From: Chryseobacterium cucumeris
Lineage (GTDB): Bacteria; Bacteroidota; Bacteroidia; Flavobacteriales; Weeksellaceae
DNA: 64,000 nucleotides
Assembly: GCF_016775705.1 (NCBI RefSeq)
Contig: NZ_CP068760.1
Location: 1,860,001 to 1,924,000, forward strand
Reading direction: 5' to 3'
The notes beneath the pieces are model-generated. The model was not told the origin of the DNA. It worked only from the letters and a program-made list of their open reading frames with translations, and searched no databases. This document shows positions 52,753-58,837 of this stretch, piece after piece; position 1 is the stretch's first letter; each line of letters opens with the position of its first letter. The translations under genes and the position numbers were made by a program.

Positions 52753-52990
52753 AGCTGTAAAATTTTTAATTAATATTCTTTGATTTTTTCCGGTCCAAAA
52801 TTGCAGAAGAAAAAGATCCCAGTCTTCTTTTATGCAACTACAAAACATCTTCAATTCAGATTACGGATGACTACAAAATGTCTACAAAAACAATTAAAAA
52901 TCTAATATTCAACAAATTACAAACAATACATAGTTCTACTTTTTCAGACAGGAAATTGACAGGTGTCTACAATTTTTGTACTTTCACCTT

Positions 52991-54841
52991 ATGAAATTAA
53001 AGTACTTACTTTTATACTGTATACTTTTTATCTGCCCATTATATCCCGCACAGAATACATTTATTGATGGTCTTAAGAACCAGTTGAATGAAGATCATAT
53101 TTCTACTGCAGAAAAATTCAGAATTTACAATGAACTTACCGAATATTACAGAGTCAGCGATCAATATTCTACAGCTGAAAAATATGTTCAGCAGCAACTT
53201 GATCTTGCTAAAAAAGAAAATGATTATGCTGAAGAAGTAAAAGCTCTCAGTCAAAAAGGAGTCATTAAGCTTAATCAGTCTGAATATGATAAGATTCCTC
53301 CTATTCTGGATGCTGCGAATGCAATTGTTCAAAAGAGTCAAAATAAAACTGCGGAACTATATGCCACTTATCTGAATATCTACTACAGAAATGCACTTGG
53401 CGAACTTGAAAATACAATCAGGCTTGTTCAGAAAGTTCTTCCCACCGTTGAAAAACAACCTTCTGAAATCTTATTAAACGCAAAGCTCAATTATCTTCTC
53501 TATGGAATCTATACAGAATGGAACGATGCTGACAATGCCACCAGATATGCCAAGAAATCCATAGAGCTTGCTGAAAAGGCGGGAAACAAAAATTTACTCA
53601 GCTCTACCTATTCGGCGCTGGCTGTCTGCTACTCCTTTCAATATGAGAAAAGCGGGAACTCAAAAGATCTGAAACCCGTCATTGAGATGTGTAAGAAAGC
53701 TGTTGGCCTGTACCATCAATTTCCCGGTCATGTCTCAGCCCATGTACATGCAATGGCCTTACTGAATCTTACAAACTATTATCTGAGCTATCCGGTTATG
53801 ACTCCCGAAATCCGTGAGGAAATTCAGAATAACGCCCACGAAATCCTGACCCTTACCCAGCATACGACTCTTAATCAGAGTATGCAGGCAGGTGCACTTG
53901 GTGTTTTGAGCAATCTTGCATCACGGGATCAGAATGATGCTTTATCAGAGCAGTATCTTCTGAAAGCTGAACAGATTCTGCTTACCCAGCAGCCGGTTTA
54001 TTATCACGTGATGATCAATGTGGTAAAAAATCTTGCAGAGCTTTATGCAAAACAGAAAAATTACCGGAAAGCTTATGAGTACGAGACAAAAGTAACAGAA
54101 TACAGCAATCTTCTCTTTGATGAAGGCCAGGCTGAAACTGCAAAAAGGTTGGAAGCTCAGTATCAATCGCAGAAAAAAGAATCTGAACTCAGATCTCTCA
54201 CCGAAAAAACGGCCAGTCTGAAAAAGGAAAAACTTCTTTATATTATACTGGGAATCATAGGATTGATTGGAGCCTTCTTTATGTTCCGTTCTTATCATTT
54301 TAAACTGCGGTATTCTATAGAAAGGGAAAATAAGCTTGATACAGAAAAGCATGAAGCAGAAATGCAGGTCAAACTTCAGGAGGAAGAGCAGGCCCGATTA
54401 AGGGCAGAACAGGAACTACTTACCCTTCAGCAGCAAAAACTTCAAAGTGAGGTACTGGCGAGCCAGCTTCATATTCAGCATAAGAATGAGGTTCTGCAGC
54501 AGCTTCAGACCCAGCTTTCCGATACGGATATTAATATTCATCAGGTGGTAAAAGGAGAAAATCGGGTTGACAATGATTTTGAAAAAATCAGATTCACCAT
54601 TCAGGAACTGCATCCTGATTTCTTCAAAAATATCAATGAAAAAGCTAAACAAAAGCTTACTGCTCTGGATTTGAAATACTGTGCTTACCTCTATCTGGGA
54701 ATGGACACCAAACAAATTGCCAACCTCCTCAATGTAGAACCCAAAAGTGTAAGAATGACCAAATACCGGTTGAAGAAAAAGTTCGGACTCGACGAGAATA
54801 CTGCTTTAGAATCTTTTTTCCAGGGGGTGTTTTCTGAGTAA
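52991..54841 (+). CDS. TPR-containing membrane-bound transcriptional regulator (LuxR-like HTH)
   Basis: A 616-residue regulator. The ATG at 52991 gives a signal (MKLKYLLLYCILFICPLYPAQ); an upstream TTG is not needed. Residues about 20-400 are helical TPR repeats in the periplasm, ILGIIGLIGAFFMF (about 420) is the membrane helix, a long coiled coil (EKHEAEMQVKLQEEEQARLRAEQELL) leads to a C-terminal HTH at about 555-615 (LTALDLKYCAYLYLGMDTKQIANLLNVEPKSVRMTKYRLKKKF). This class senses an envelope signal and binds DNA. Targets unknown. It lies just upstream of the RiPP locus on the same strand, but a terminator and ~600 bp separate them. Confidence 0.87.
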   Translation: MKLKYLLLYCILFICPLYPAQNTFIDGLKNQLNEDHISTAEKFRIYNELTEYYRVSDQYSTAEKYVQQQLDLAKKENDYAEEVKALSQKGVIKLNQSEYDKIPPILDAANAIVQKSQNKTAELYATYLNIYYRNALGELENTIRLVQKVLPTVEKQPSEILLNAKLNYLLYGIYTEWNDADNATRYAKKSIELAEKAGNKNLLSSTYSALAVCYSFQYEKSGNSKDLKPVIEMCKKAVGLYHQFPGHVSAHVHAMALLNLTNYYLSYPVMTPEIREEIQNNAHEILTLTQHTTLNQSMQAGALGVLSNLASRDQNDALSEQYLLKAEQILLTQQPVYYHVMINVVKNLAELYAKQKNYRKAYEYETKVTEYSNLLFDEGQAETAKRLEAQYQSQKKESELRSLTEKTASLKKEKLLYIILGIIGLIGAFFMFRSYHFKLRYSIERENKLDTEKHEAEMQVKLQEEEQARLRAEQELLTLQQQKLQSEVLASQLHIQHKNEVLQQLQTQLSDTDINIHQVVKGENRVDNDFEKIRFTIQELHPDFFKNINEKAKQKLTALDLKYCAYLYLGMDTKQIANLLNVEPKSVRMTKYRLKKKFGLDENTALESFFQGVFSE

Positions 54842-55458: not shown

Positions 55459-55659
55459 ATGAAAAAATTAAATGGAATGAAGAGTGGCTTCTCTTCTACA
55501 GAAAACAAGAAATTACAAAGAAAGGATCTAAAATCTATTTTAGGTGGAGATGGTTATAAATATGTAGAAACAGATTGTGGTTCTACATGTTATGATAAAG
55601 AAACATGGAAAGATGGGACTCTTATCAGTACTTTAAAAATAGATACCAGCCTTAATTAG
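55459..55659 (+). CDS. RiPP precursor peptide with double-glycine leader (grasp-with-spasm type)
   Basis: A 66-residue peptide. Residues 1-30 are a leader ending KDLKSILGG, the Bacteroidota GG-type cleavage motif (Gly29-Gly30). The 36-residue core carries a CGSTC pair (Cys40, Cys44), several Asp/Glu (31, 37, 39, 46, 48, 52, 62) and Ser/Thr/Lys acceptors, the residues an ATP-grasp ligase would link by ester or amide bonds. The maturation genes follow at 55727-58777. GG leaders are normally cut by a C39-peptidase ABC exporter, which is absent from this window. Found by sequence pattern; product structure unknown. Confidence 0.85.
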   Translation: MKKLNGMKSGFSSTENKKLQRKDLKSILGGDGYKYVETDCGSTCYDKETWKDGTLISTLKIDTSLN

Positions 55660-55726
55660 TATTATCACAGATAGAGGGTTATCCCTCTATCTCTTTTATC
55701 ATCACACCATATTCGTTAGAGAATTT

Positions 55727-56632
55727 ATGAAAAAGGATATTTGGAACTATGCTTCATATGGTTTAATAGCTATAATTTTCACTCTCATAGCTTGCAAGAG
55801 CAGAAATTTGAACTATATAACCTATTATAATAGAATCAATGAAATCGACAGTATATTTCGTTTACAAAAGGATACAATATTTACAATTAAGCAGTACAAA
55901 AAAATATTCAGCCAATATCCTCCCAAAAACCAGGAACGGAGGGAGGAATATGAAAATTACATAAAGCTTGCAGATCAACATCACAAAAATTTCGGAGGGA
56001 AAAAAAGTCTTTACAAGCTTATTCCGTTAGTTGCACATAATTGGAAATATAAAAAGCAAGACTCCAGCTTCATACAGCTCTATCAAAAATATGGTATTGG
56101 CAGGCAGGAAATGGAATTGAAAGTTGAGGAATGGAAAAGAGGACTTAATCAAAAACTTGTAGATTCTTTTACAGTCGCGTTTAAACGTGATCAAGACAGC
56201 CGTATTGATTCAAATTATGCAGATATCAATAAAAATGATAAAAAGAATGCTGAACTTCTGAGGTGGATGTTTGAGAATTATGGTTTCCCAAGTCTGCAAA
56301 AAATTGGTTTATCAAATGGTGATTTCTTTATGCCATCAGGACCTATATTACTACACATGGCAGATTATGAAGAGTATTACCCATATTTGAAAATAAAGCT
56401 ATTAGAGTATGTAAAATCTGGTGAATGTCCCCCAAGAGACTACGCAGCTATGGTAGATAGAAATAATTTACACCATAAAGTACCTTATACTTATGGCGTT
56501 TATCAAGGATATGAAAATATAAAAGACTCCGCAACCGTCAATCGTAATCGCAAAAACATAGGGCTGCCAAGCTTAAAGCATGCTCAGTTGATTACAAAAG
56601 ATTTTTTCAAAAAAATAAAAAAGAAAAATTGA
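55727..56632 (+). CDS. DUF6624-like lipoprotein in the RiPP locus
   Basis: A 301-residue protein with a lipoprotein signal: LIAC at residues 20-23, followed by KSRN. The C-terminal half contains LLRWMFENYGFPSLQKIGLS, GPILLHMADYEEYY and DYAAMVDRNNLHHKVPYTYGV, which resembles the DUF6624 family (helix-rich, with a conserved D-R and a Y-G after it). It is placed between the precursor and the ATP-grasp gene and ends in TTGA, where TTG is the next start, so it is translationally coupled to the maturase. An immunity, binding or proteolytic role is a guess only. Confidence 0.75.
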   Translation: MKKDIWNYASYGLIAIIFTLIACKSRNLNYITYYNRINEIDSIFRLQKDTIFTIKQYKKIFSQYPPKNQERREEYENYIKLADQHHKNFGGKKSLYKLIPLVAHNWKYKKQDSSFIQLYQKYGIGRQEMELKVEEWKRGLNQKLVDSFTVAFKRDQDSRIDSNYADINKNDKKNAELLRWMFENYGFPSLQKIGLSNGDFFMPSGPILLHMADYEEYYPYLKIKLLEYVKSGECPPRDYAAMVDRNNLHHKVPYTYGVYQGYENIKDSATVNRNRKNIGLPSLKHAQLITKDFFKKIKKKN

Positions 56633-57531
56633 TACTGATCATTTCTCAAAATAACGAGATAACCACTACAGAAGTCATTAAATGGCTACAAAAATTGGAT
56701 AAAAGCTTTATCCGGGTGCATGAAGATGAAATTTTTGATATTAAAATCCAAGAAAAACGGATTTATCTAGAAAGCCCGAGAAATTGTTTTTTTATTGATG
56801 AAATTAGCAGTGTATGGTATAGAAGAGGTAGACTGAAGTTTAACCGCCTGTACTATAAAAATGAAGCGATTAACCTCCATATGAATGAATATCAACACTG
56901 GCTGGAAGATTATGTAATAAAGGTTTTAGAGTCAAAAAAACATATTAATAAACAAAGCAATTGTGATATCAATAAACTTCTTGTGCTTGAAGAGGCCCAA
57001 AAGGCTGGATTAGATGTTCCGTCTTATTTTCTGGCTGACAACACAGATCATGTTACTTTAAATAAAACAATCATCAAAACCATTGGTGGCAACCCAAGAA
57101 TGGAAAGCATACTCAAGGATTCCAGTGGGATGATGTATACAACAGTTGTTCAAGAAAATGAAAATAAAAATTTTTTAATCACTTTTTTTCAGGAAAAAAT
57201 CGAAAAAAACTTCGAGATCAGAAGCTTTTATCTAAATGGTAAAGTTTGGTCTACAGCCATCTTTTCGCAAAATGATAACCAAACTAAAATTGACTTTAGG
57301 AAATACAATGATGAAAAACCCAATAGAAAAGTACCTTATAATCTTCCGAAAAATATTGAGCAAAAAATACATCTGTTAATGCAGTCATTAGATCTTAATT
57401 CCGGTTCTCTTGATTTCATCAAAAATGATGGTAAATACTATTTTTTAGAAGTCAATCCAGTAGGCCAGTTTTTGGGAATATCAGTAATATGTAATTATTT
57501 ATTGGAAAAAGAAATAGCTGATTATTTATGA
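56629..57531 (+). CDS. gwsG: Grasp-with-spasm system ATP-grasp peptide maturase
   Basis: A 300-residue ATP-grasp ligase. It starts at TTG 56629, overlapping the stop of the lipoprotein gene. The family landmark WYRRGR (63-68) is present, as in MvdC/MvdD-type graspetide ligases. The metal/ATP site is D262 in SLDFI, E274 and N276 in FLEVNPVGQF. Such enzymes link Asp/Glu side chains to Ser/Thr/Lys of a precursor peptide with ATP. It is followed by a 4-bp ATGA overlap with the next gene. Cytosolic; precursor at 55459 is the presumed substrate. Confidence 0.88.
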   Translation: MILIISQNNEITTTEVIKWLQKLDKSFIRVHEDEIFDIKIQEKRIYLESPRNCFFIDEISSVWYRRGRLKFNRLYYKNEAINLHMNEYQHWLEDYVIKVLESKKHINKQSNCDINKLLVLEEAQKAGLDVPSYFLADNTDHVTLNKTIIKTIGGNPRMESILKDSSGMMYTTVVQENENKNFLITFFQEKIEKNFEIRSFYLNGKVWSTAIFSQNDNQTKIDFRKYNDEKPNRKVPYNLPKNIEQKIHLLMQSLDLNSGSLDFIKNDGKYYFLEVNPVGQFLGISVICNYLLEKEIADYL

Positions 57532-57710
57532 AAAGAGATTTTACTAACAAAGAAAAACATAAACTTCCCCTCACCTTTAAATATATTGACGTTGTAAAAA
57601 ACAAAATTCGTGAGAAAAAACATTTTAGCATCACCATTCCATGCGAAAAATACTATACTGATTCTTACGCAAAACTTAATCCTTATAAATTTCTGACGAG
57701 ATTATTATGA
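57528..57710 (+). CDS. Small basic protein between the two maturase genes
   Basis: A 60-residue ORF, Lys/Arg-rich, reading MKRDFTNKEKHKLPL at the start and YAKLNPYKFLTRLL at the end. It begins in the ATGA that ends the ATP-grasp gene and ends in the ATGA that starts the SPASM gene, so it is tightly coupled on both sides, which argues for a real protein. No motif recognised; one Cys (in ITIPCEKYY). It could be a recognition or adaptor protein for the precursor, or a second small peptide substrate. Confidence 0.65.
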   Translation: MKRDFTNKEKHKLPLTFKYIDVVKNKIREKKHFSITIPCEKYYTDSYAKLNPYKFLTRLL

Positions 57711-58777
57711 ACTATTTCAGCCTATTTGCCAACATCCTTATCACCAAAGGAGCCACCAGAATTCTCATTTCAGATCTACAGAGAAATATATCAGAACTGT
57801 ATCCGTTGGAGTTGTATGAAATTATAGAAGAGCTGAAAAACAAATCCGTTGAAGATACAATGACAAGTTATGATGAAGAATCCAAAGTAATTATTCAGGA
57901 ATACATCCATCTTCTGTTGGAAAAAGAATATGGATTTATTACAGAGAATGACTGGGATAGAAATTTTCCTCCCCTTTCTTTTGAACATCATGAGCCCAGC
58001 GCTATCACCAATCTCTTTATTGAAATGGACGATATCGGGATCATAAAGAAGATATTTCCGTCAATAGAAAACCTTGGGATTAAGCATTTGGTTATTTACA
58101 GCTCAAAACCTTTACCCTTAAAAGATTGTATAGAAATTGATGAAATTTTTAAAACCTCAGTGTTATCAGGAATAGAAATTTTCTCACCGTTTCACCAGGA
58201 AGTCAACCTCTCTTTTATACAGGCTCTTCAAAAAAATACGGTCAGAATATACAGTCTTATTTTTTACAATTGTCCGGAGTCTCCTTTCAAAGCTAAAGAT
58301 GAATATAGATTCTCACTGAATTTGCTGAAAGATGATCTGAAAATATCTGCCTGTGGAAAAGTGGAACTGAAATACTTCAACACGAATATTACTAAAGTTA
58401 TAGAAGCAGTGAACCACAATTCCTGCCTGCATAAAAAGATAGGCATTGATAGAAAAGGTAATATTAAAAACTGTCCACTGATGAATGAAAGCTTTGGAAA
58501 CATCCATAAATACAGTCTTGAAGAAGCTATCAATCAACCTGATTTCAGAAAATACTGGGATCTTACTAAAGACCAAATTGAAATATGCAAAGACTGTGAG
58601 TTCCGTTATGTCTGCACAGACTGCAGGGCATATACGGAAAACACATTAAAAAACAAAAAAGGCCTGAATATATCAAAACCTCTGAAATGCGGCTATAATC
58701 CTTATACGGGCGTTTGGGATGACTGGTCAAAAAACCCTTTAAAACAAGAAATTTTTAATTCCCTGGTACTCAGATAA
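57707..58777 (+). CDS. gwsS: Grasp-with-spasm system SPASM-domain maturase, no radical-SAM cluster motif
   Basis: A 356-residue protein. Residues 240-328 make a full SPASM domain: Cys240-x10-Gly251-x4-Cys256 (CLHKKIGIDRKGNIKNC), then C294-x2-C297-x5-C303-x2-C306 (CKDCEFRYVCTDC) and Cys328. The N-terminal ~235 residues are degenerate: no CxxxCxxC motif is present, so a SAM-cleaving [4Fe-4S] cluster is not expected. It resembles TIGR04193-like members of this system. Expected to bind two auxiliary Fe-S clusters and perhaps deliver the precursor to the ligase. Confidence 0.87.
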   Translation: MNYFSLFANILITKGATRILISDLQRNISELYPLELYEIIEELKNKSVEDTMTSYDEESKVIIQEYIHLLLEKEYGFITENDWDRNFPPLSFEHHEPSAITNLFIEMDDIGIIKKIFPSIENLGIKHLVIYSSKPLPLKDCIEIDEIFKTSVLSGIEIFSPFHQEVNLSFIQALQKNTVRIYSLIFYNCPESPFKAKDEYRFSLNLLKDDLKISACGKVELKYFNTNITKVIEAVNHNSCLHKKIGIDRKGNIKNCPLMNESFGNIHKYSLEEAINQPDFRKYWDLTKDQIEICKDCEFRYVCTDCRAYTENTLKNKKGLNISKPLKCGYNPYTGVWDDWSKNPLKQEIFNSLVLR

Positions 58778-58804: not shown

Positions 58805-58837
58805 AAACCGCTTTTAAATTAGATTTAAAAGCGGTTT
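58805..58837. terminator. Bidirectional terminator after the RiPP locus
   Basis: 15-bp perfect stem AAACCGCTTTTAAAT/ATTTAAAAGCGGTTT with TAG loop; it separates the RiPP genes from the convergent membrane-protein gene. The T-tail is short on both strands. Confidence 0.8.

Follow-up and report, generated by a model that had tools for sequence, protein, structure and literature searches.

The window, a 64,000-nucleotide stretch of the Chryseobacterium cucumeris genome, contains an operon in which genes for a precursor peptide, a lipoprotein, GwsG, a 60-aa LPL protein and GwsS follow one another on one strand (the plus strand, as for all features of the operon given below). The precursor ORF (55459-55659, ATG start) is followed by genes for a lipoprotein-like protein of 301 aa (55727..56632), GwsG, a graspetide-type ATP-grasp ligase (56629..57531; TIGR04192, 354.8 bits against a cut-off of 230), an LPL-type protein containing L-P-L-T-F-K-Y-I-D (57528..57710; named after PMC8939145) and GwsS (57707..58777; TIGR04193, 463.9 bits against a cut-off of 175). 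Each of the last three junctions is a 4-base overlap between neighbouring genes. One terminator-like hairpin lies between the precursor gene and the maturation genes (55669..55692) and another 3' of the operon (58805..58837). A hairpin with a T-rich tail was found within 90 bases 3' of 45 of 70 distinct precursors, compared with 26 of 1000 random 90-mers drawn from these loci and 4 of 700 shuffled sequences, and the hairpin of the precursor gene is likely an attenuator that gives an excess of precursor over enzymes. A sigma-70 promoter scan, which does not cover the Bacteroidetes promoter type, was uninformative because the count was close to chance (22 found versus 18.2 +- 4.3). Directly upstream of the operon lies a gene for a TPR protein that ends in a LuxR-type helix-turn-helix (52976-54841); it has weak FimS and MalT-like matches and is a possible regulator.

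The precursor ORF encodes 66 aa (MKKLNGMKSGFSSTENKKLQRKDLKSILGG / DGYKYVETDCGSTCYDKETWKDGTLISTLKIDTSLN). The leader, residues 1-30 (55459..55548), lacks proline and ends in Gly29-Gly30, of the double-Gly type, while codons 31-66 encode the 36-residue core DGYKYVETDCGSTCYDKETWKDGTLISTLKIDTSLN (55549..55656), with seven acidic residues (D31, E37, D39, D46, E48, D52 and D62) and a C40-GST-C44 pair. Translation of the ORF agrees with the initial annotation on Gly29-Gly30, the length of the core, its seven acids and CGSTC. In a profile search the precursor matched TIGR04139 over its full length (80.2 bits, E 1.2e-22, cut-off 40), and it also scored against Pfam Bacteroid_pep PF14406 (25.7 bits, cut-off 25). 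The name of the former family, CxxCx5CxxC_targ, serves as a label here, as the four-Cys pattern is absent and only CGSTC is found. Near relatives on five other contigs have nearly identical cores. Synonymous and non-synonymous differences in the core were 4 and 5 (L033), 6 and 3 (L034) and 10 and 5 (L038) for three near relatives, the sites compared being about 21 for synonymous and 87 for non-synonymous changes; the counts were 1 and 0 for L049, and 9 and 13 for the more distant L013. The TIGR04139 score and this conservation rule out a chance ORF, and on these comparisons the precursor ORF is a real gene.

Homologues were collected from 246 genomes drawn from the family, of which 106 match TIGR04192 at E <= 0.001 and 71 score over the cut-off; regions were fetched for most of the matches over the cut-off among those listed. 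Length limits were 320-420 aa for GwsS, 280-380 for GwsG, 40-120 for LPL and 200-420 for the lipoprotein. Precursors came from 145 loci (32 from genome searches, 33 from related-locus searches and 80 fetched stretches), and a leader pattern together with four HMM matches yielded 75 distinct precursors, selected on the leader and not on the core. Omitted among the HMM matches listed were L007, which lacks a core, L009, whose leader is in a different frame and whose core has one Cys, and the divergent L094, with two core Cys; the precursor of L138 (two core Cys) lies outside the count. Position 46 is acidic in all 75 precursors (58 Asp, 17 Glu), the sole core position of which this is true. Acidic residues occupy position 48 in 51 and position 52 in 56 precursors, position 50 is aromatic in 66, and position 58 holds Thr in 40 precursors and Arg in 31. 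Within a near group of 22 precursors with DK[EQK]T[WY], D46, T49, T58 and L59 are each present in all 22, D52 in 21 and T38 in 20, the remaining two having Ser at a similar distance. Acid 52 is present in 39 of 40 precursors with T58 versus 17 of 35 without it, an association to be read with shared ancestry in mind. The core thus retains both a conserved acceptor (D/E) and a conserved donor (S/T/K), as in graspetides, and the alignment of homologous precursors that had been proposed as a check reveals a conserved core with conserved Thr and Asp positions. The reading of the ORF as a graspetide precursor, adjoining an ATP-grasp ligase, is upheld across the 75 precursors.

The operon is of a kind that is already known, because branch 5, as outlined in the parts of PMC8939145 available to us, has the same make-up. 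Branch 5 combines a SPASM protein, a 'cluster 23' lipoprotein and an 'LPL' gene directly upstream of the SPASM gene; its precursors have MKKL leaders, GG and conserved Thr/Ser and Asp/Glu, with TIGR04139 cited, and with 190 loci it outnumbers every other poorly characterised group (PMC8939145). The window operon likewise has a SPASM protein beside the ATP-grasp ligase, LPL directly upstream of the SPASM gene, a lipoprotein that is probably of the cluster 23 type, an MKKL leader, GG and conserved Thr/Ser and Asp/Glu, and we found no difference that sets it apart, the window being without a C39 transporter. SPASM-linked graspetides also appear as group 14 in PMC13097080, which we infer, from the SPASM partner, to be the same set as branch 5. 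The available portions of the two papers name no characterised product of either. A literature search did not return the term 'grasp-with-spasm'; PMC8939145 was the sole graspetide paper among the listed matches to the TIGR accessions, and 'RiPP recognition element', 'SPASM' and 'ATP-grasp' together matched PMC13097080 only. By inspection, each of the 75 related precursors has a single core block; the one block in the window precursor rules out a multi-core graspetide. The initial annotation was correct in counting one core, which is normal in this set; its description of the core as unusual is not supported, because the precursor belongs to a curated family (TIGR04139) and, as far as the available text of PMC8939145 and PMC13097080 goes, to a published group, and because single cores are the rule among the 75 precursors.

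For the ring residues, the best prediction from the alignment is that threonines are esterified to Asp46 and Asp52, the pairing of particular Thr and Asp residues being a guess. Asp46 (55594..55596) is the predicted acceptor and Thr38 (55570..55572) the predicted ester donor, while Thr49 (55603..55605) and Thr58 (55630..55632) are candidate donors; Asp52 (55612..55614) is the position that goes with Thr58 in the full set of precursors. In known graspetides the donors usually precede their acceptors in the sequence. The donor-acceptor pairs of rosaritide fit this order (PMC13097080), and a Thr58-Asp52 ester is therefore disfavoured.

GwsG carries the motif KIDFRKYND, and Asp222 and Arg224 of DFR are present in all 106 homologues (literal DFR in 82 of 106). 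It is thus an ATP-grasp synthetase with the DFR motif named for graspetides in PMC13097080. Scores against the MvdC and MvdD profiles were 110 and 101 bits, below the cut-offs. In the LPL protein, L13 is found in 73 of 73 and P14 in 72 of 73 homologues, and 70 of the 73 fit the pattern L-P-h-x-h-x-x-h-[ED/T]. Its PLTFKYID segment aligns with the microviridin activating motif PFFARFLE, of which the last residue is E. The motif PFFARFL is named in PMC8939145, where, in the text available to us, the resemblance of LPL to it is noted and branch 5 leaders are described as lacking it. A leader motif of the Phhx(1,2)h or PFFARFL type is absent here, the leader having no proline, as is also the case for 72 of the 75 related leaders. 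Leaders can activate RiPP enzymes in trans (PMC13003496). Because the PFFARFLE-like motif is present in LPL and absent from precursor leaders, a bold reading is that LPL may act as an activating helix separated from the leader, switching on the ligase in trans.

GwsS matches the SPASM family PF13186 (28.7 bits, cut-off 21.5). The SPASM Cys pattern is present in 86 of 94 distinct homologues; C294, C297, C303 and C328 are found in all 94, and C216, C240, C256 and C306 in 87. However, none of the 94 has a radical-SAM CX3CX2C N-terminal to the SPASM domain, a C-x(2-20)-C-x2-C ahead of residue 200 or a GG[ED] in residues 120-160. One homologue has CX3CX2C elsewhere, and 45 of 94 have one or two Cys in residues 90-135, with CX3CX2C-type spacing absent. 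An AlphaFold2 model (mean pLDDT 67, pTM 0.54) has three strands and three helices, then beta-alpha units and a SPASM region. The N-domain elements of this middling-confidence model are E10-14, E18-23, E28-33, H34-45, H48-53 and H57-74, with residues 1-70 in blocks of pLDDT 46-82. In Foldseek the best matches were sactipeptide maturase structures 5why (E 2.9e-5) and 5wgg (E 6.5e-5), which we take to be CteB, followed by MccB. VIA matched the model to PqqE, BtrN, anSME, CteB and TigE with Z of 9.7-11.0 (PqqE 11.0, BtrN 10.9, TigE 10.2, anSME 9.9; SuiB 9.8). Residues 4-75 alone gave scores below the caution line of 8: leader-bound TbiB1 with Z 7.0 (71 aligned, 3.0 A), the heterocyclase 4v1u, presumably LynD, with 6.4, and TruD with 6.2. 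Pfam lists neither PqqD nor another RRE family for 25 members of the GwsS alignment, and a search with a GwsS sequence profile gave no meaningful score to any relative of solved structure. On the model, we read GwsS as an RRE-like domain, a degenerate radical-SAM half-barrel and a SPASM domain. The modelled domain order is shared with the 5why/5wgg maturase, TigE and PqqE, some with an RRE; these are radical-SAM/SPASM maturases, whereas GwsS lacks the radical-SAM cluster motif.

Because the CX3CX2C motif is missing from 94 of 94 homologues and the modelled radical-SAM part is degenerate, GwsS is probably a non-radical partner protein and not a radical enzyme. The available text of PMC8939145 calls the SPASM proteins radical SAM enzymes; the motif counts argue against such catalysis by GwsS. 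Radical-SAM thioether chemistry was rejected as the main reading because GwsS lacks a cluster motif. We found no published account of this degeneracy in a limited search, in which 'pseudo-rSAM' was swamped by medical 'spasm'.

The core cysteines of the 75 precursors number none in 20, one in 7, two in 44 and three in 4, an even number in 64 and an odd one in 11. A pair is placed either as CxxxC before Asp46, or with one Cys ahead of it and the other close to the C-terminus. The parities of the Cys counts before and after residue 46 are linked (Fisher raw p 4.6e-10 for 75 precursors); the link is retained on thinning to 53 representatives (p 7.0e-6) and to 42 at 70% core identity (p 4.7e-4), and weakens with further thinning (p 0.012 for 32, and 0.057 for 27 representatives at 50%). 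In a tree built from 68 GwsG proteins, parity changes 11 times upstream and 12 times downstream, while that of the total changes only 6 times; an independent-pairs sign test on the tree, with too few pairs, was not significant (median p 0.375). Relatives also differ by paired losses, as in GECYDK..LEIC versus GEVYDK..LEVG (CYDKETW..LEIC to VYDKETW..LEVG), and by the paired change CGNNC versus SGSNS. Since the cysteines are mostly even in number and can vanish as a pair, the core alignment and the GwsG tree favour a disulfide over a thioether for Cys40-Gly-Ser-Thr-Cys44 (55576..55590). Of the two fates first suggested for this pair, the disulfide is thus the better reading, whereas modification by an Fe-S protein acting as a radical enzyme is not supported, given the motif counts for GwsS (CX3CX2C and GG[ED] each 0/94).

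The lipoprotein-like protein has a lipobox Cys (Cys23, in 89 of 90 homologues), a conserved His (His210) and a conserved Arg, in agreement with the cluster 23 description in PMC8939145, and is probably of this type, the comparison being with the description in the available text. It matches DUF6624 weakly, and of 24 homologues 2 did so at E <= 0.1. The model is mostly helical (pLDDT 87.8); it had no Foldseek match at E <= 0.001, and its best VIA match (Z 8.7), to a helical-repeat stretch, falls within the tool's caution range. Of 107 distinct GwsG loci whose flanks were long enough, GwsS was downstream in 93, LPL was detected in 64, the lipoprotein in 68 and a precursor of the counted type in 72. 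At the other 14, no GwsS turned up within 1500 bases downstream, and some of these may be tandem ligases. Tandem ligases, together with divergent partners missed by single-sequence searches, probably account for part of the undercounts.

The explanation that we favour, and hold with moderate confidence on sequence comparisons, is a single-core graspetide precursor matured by GwsG, LPL and GwsS. The RRE-like N-terminal domain of GwsS would bind the leader, and its SPASM part would hold or shape the core. By analogy with the PFFARFL helix of microviridin leaders, the PLTFKYID helix of LPL would dock on GwsG and activate it. GwsG would then phosphorylate Asp46 and probably Asp52, and the activated residues would form omega-esters with threonines, Thr38 first and Thr49 or Thr58 second. 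The hairpin 3' of the precursor gene would keep the precursor above the enzymes. Cleavage after Gly30 and export would fall to a C39-type transporter whose gene lies outside the window; outside the cytoplasm Cys40-Cys44 would be oxidised to the disulfide, and there the lipoprotein would either act on the peptide or serve in self-protection. The usual guesses for graspetide activity are protease inhibition and the killing of competitors.

Other readings differ from this explanation in the bonds formed. GwsG might join Lys in amides instead of Thr in esters, with Lys47 as one example: K47 is invariant in the near group (22/22), and graspetide ligases are capable of both bonds (PMC13097080). Outside that group, however, position 47 is mostly Thr, Tyr or other residues (Lys in 22 of 75 overall), and a Ser or Thr lies upstream of acid 46 in every core listed, so that we consider amides unlikely. 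Were GwsS instead an active iron-sulfur maturase, the cysteines would enter a thioether and the product would be a graspetide-sactipeptide hybrid. This would accord with PMC8939145, whose available text treats the SPASM protein as a radical SAM enzyme and proposes that conserved Cys give thioethers, and with retention of the SPASM cysteines; but it is hard to reconcile with the absence of all three radical-SAM motifs from the 94 homologues, with core cysteines that vary in pairs, and with the 20 Cys-free cores in a group in which GwsS is common at GwsG loci, and we regard the hybrid as improbable.

A further alternative is a plain GG-leader bacteriocin, exported unmodified or with a disulfide only. 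At L139 in the same genome, a Cys-rich GG peptide does adjoin a C39 transporter, but the operon encodes an intact GwsG with its invariant Asp222 and Arg224, and the core has an invariant acid; a peptide of this sort is very improbable here.

Within the favoured graspetide explanation, we tentatively propose, as possible rather than probable, that the jobs of a leader are split over three proteins: GwsS, in which an RRE-like domain on a dead radical-SAM/SPASM scaffold would read the precursor leader; LPL, whose PFFARFL-type helix would activate the ligase in trans; and the ligase, which would form esters on a core held further by one disulfide. If so, the synthetase would consist of three proteins, with a new, non-radical role for an iron-sulfur SPASM protein. 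This would explain how a graspetide ligase serves precursors without the usual leader motif, and would add a degenerate radical-SAM protein to the partners on which graspetide synthesis can depend. As a gene find the operon is ordinary; its relatives allow us to predict which residue is the ring acceptor, that the cysteines form a disulfide and that the Fe-S partner works without radical chemistry, and the comparison points to individual residues for mutagenesis and gives the SPASM partner another job. GwsG is related to MvdC and MvdD of the chryseoviridin/microviridin systems, and chryseoviridin comes from the same genus; the window operon differs in its single core, its leader without a PFFARFL-type motif and its SPASM and LPL partners. 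As in the rosaritide pair MirB-MirC (PMC13097080), the ligase may need a partner with an RRE-like part; MirC, however, is PpiC/SurA-like in the text available, whereas GwsS is a degenerate radical-SAM/SPASM protein for which the requirement is predicted.

Related loci were also seen elsewhere. A divergent grasp-with-spasm set (L138:2808-5149) encodes a 57-aa GG peptide with two core Cys, a GwsG (256.6 bits), a 65-aa protein in the LPL position and a GwsS-like protein under the cut-off (117.9 bits). Another locus (L111; G091:C1 1709345-1718200) has two tandem GwsG matches, both with stops inside the matched stretch. No C39 protease match was found in the window, and four lie elsewhere in the genome; one adjoins a second TIGR04139 precursor and a VKOR-thioredoxin protein. 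At this second locus (L139:1400-7160; G000:C1 near 4363400-4369160), the precursor has two core Cys and is accompanied by a lipoprotein, a 62-aa GwsG remnant (profile positions 1-57), the VKOR-thioredoxin protein, a C39 transporter, a Cys-rich GG peptide and HlyD. Disulfide machinery and C39 export therefore stand together with such a precursor, which may depend on the GwsG and GwsS of the window in trans.
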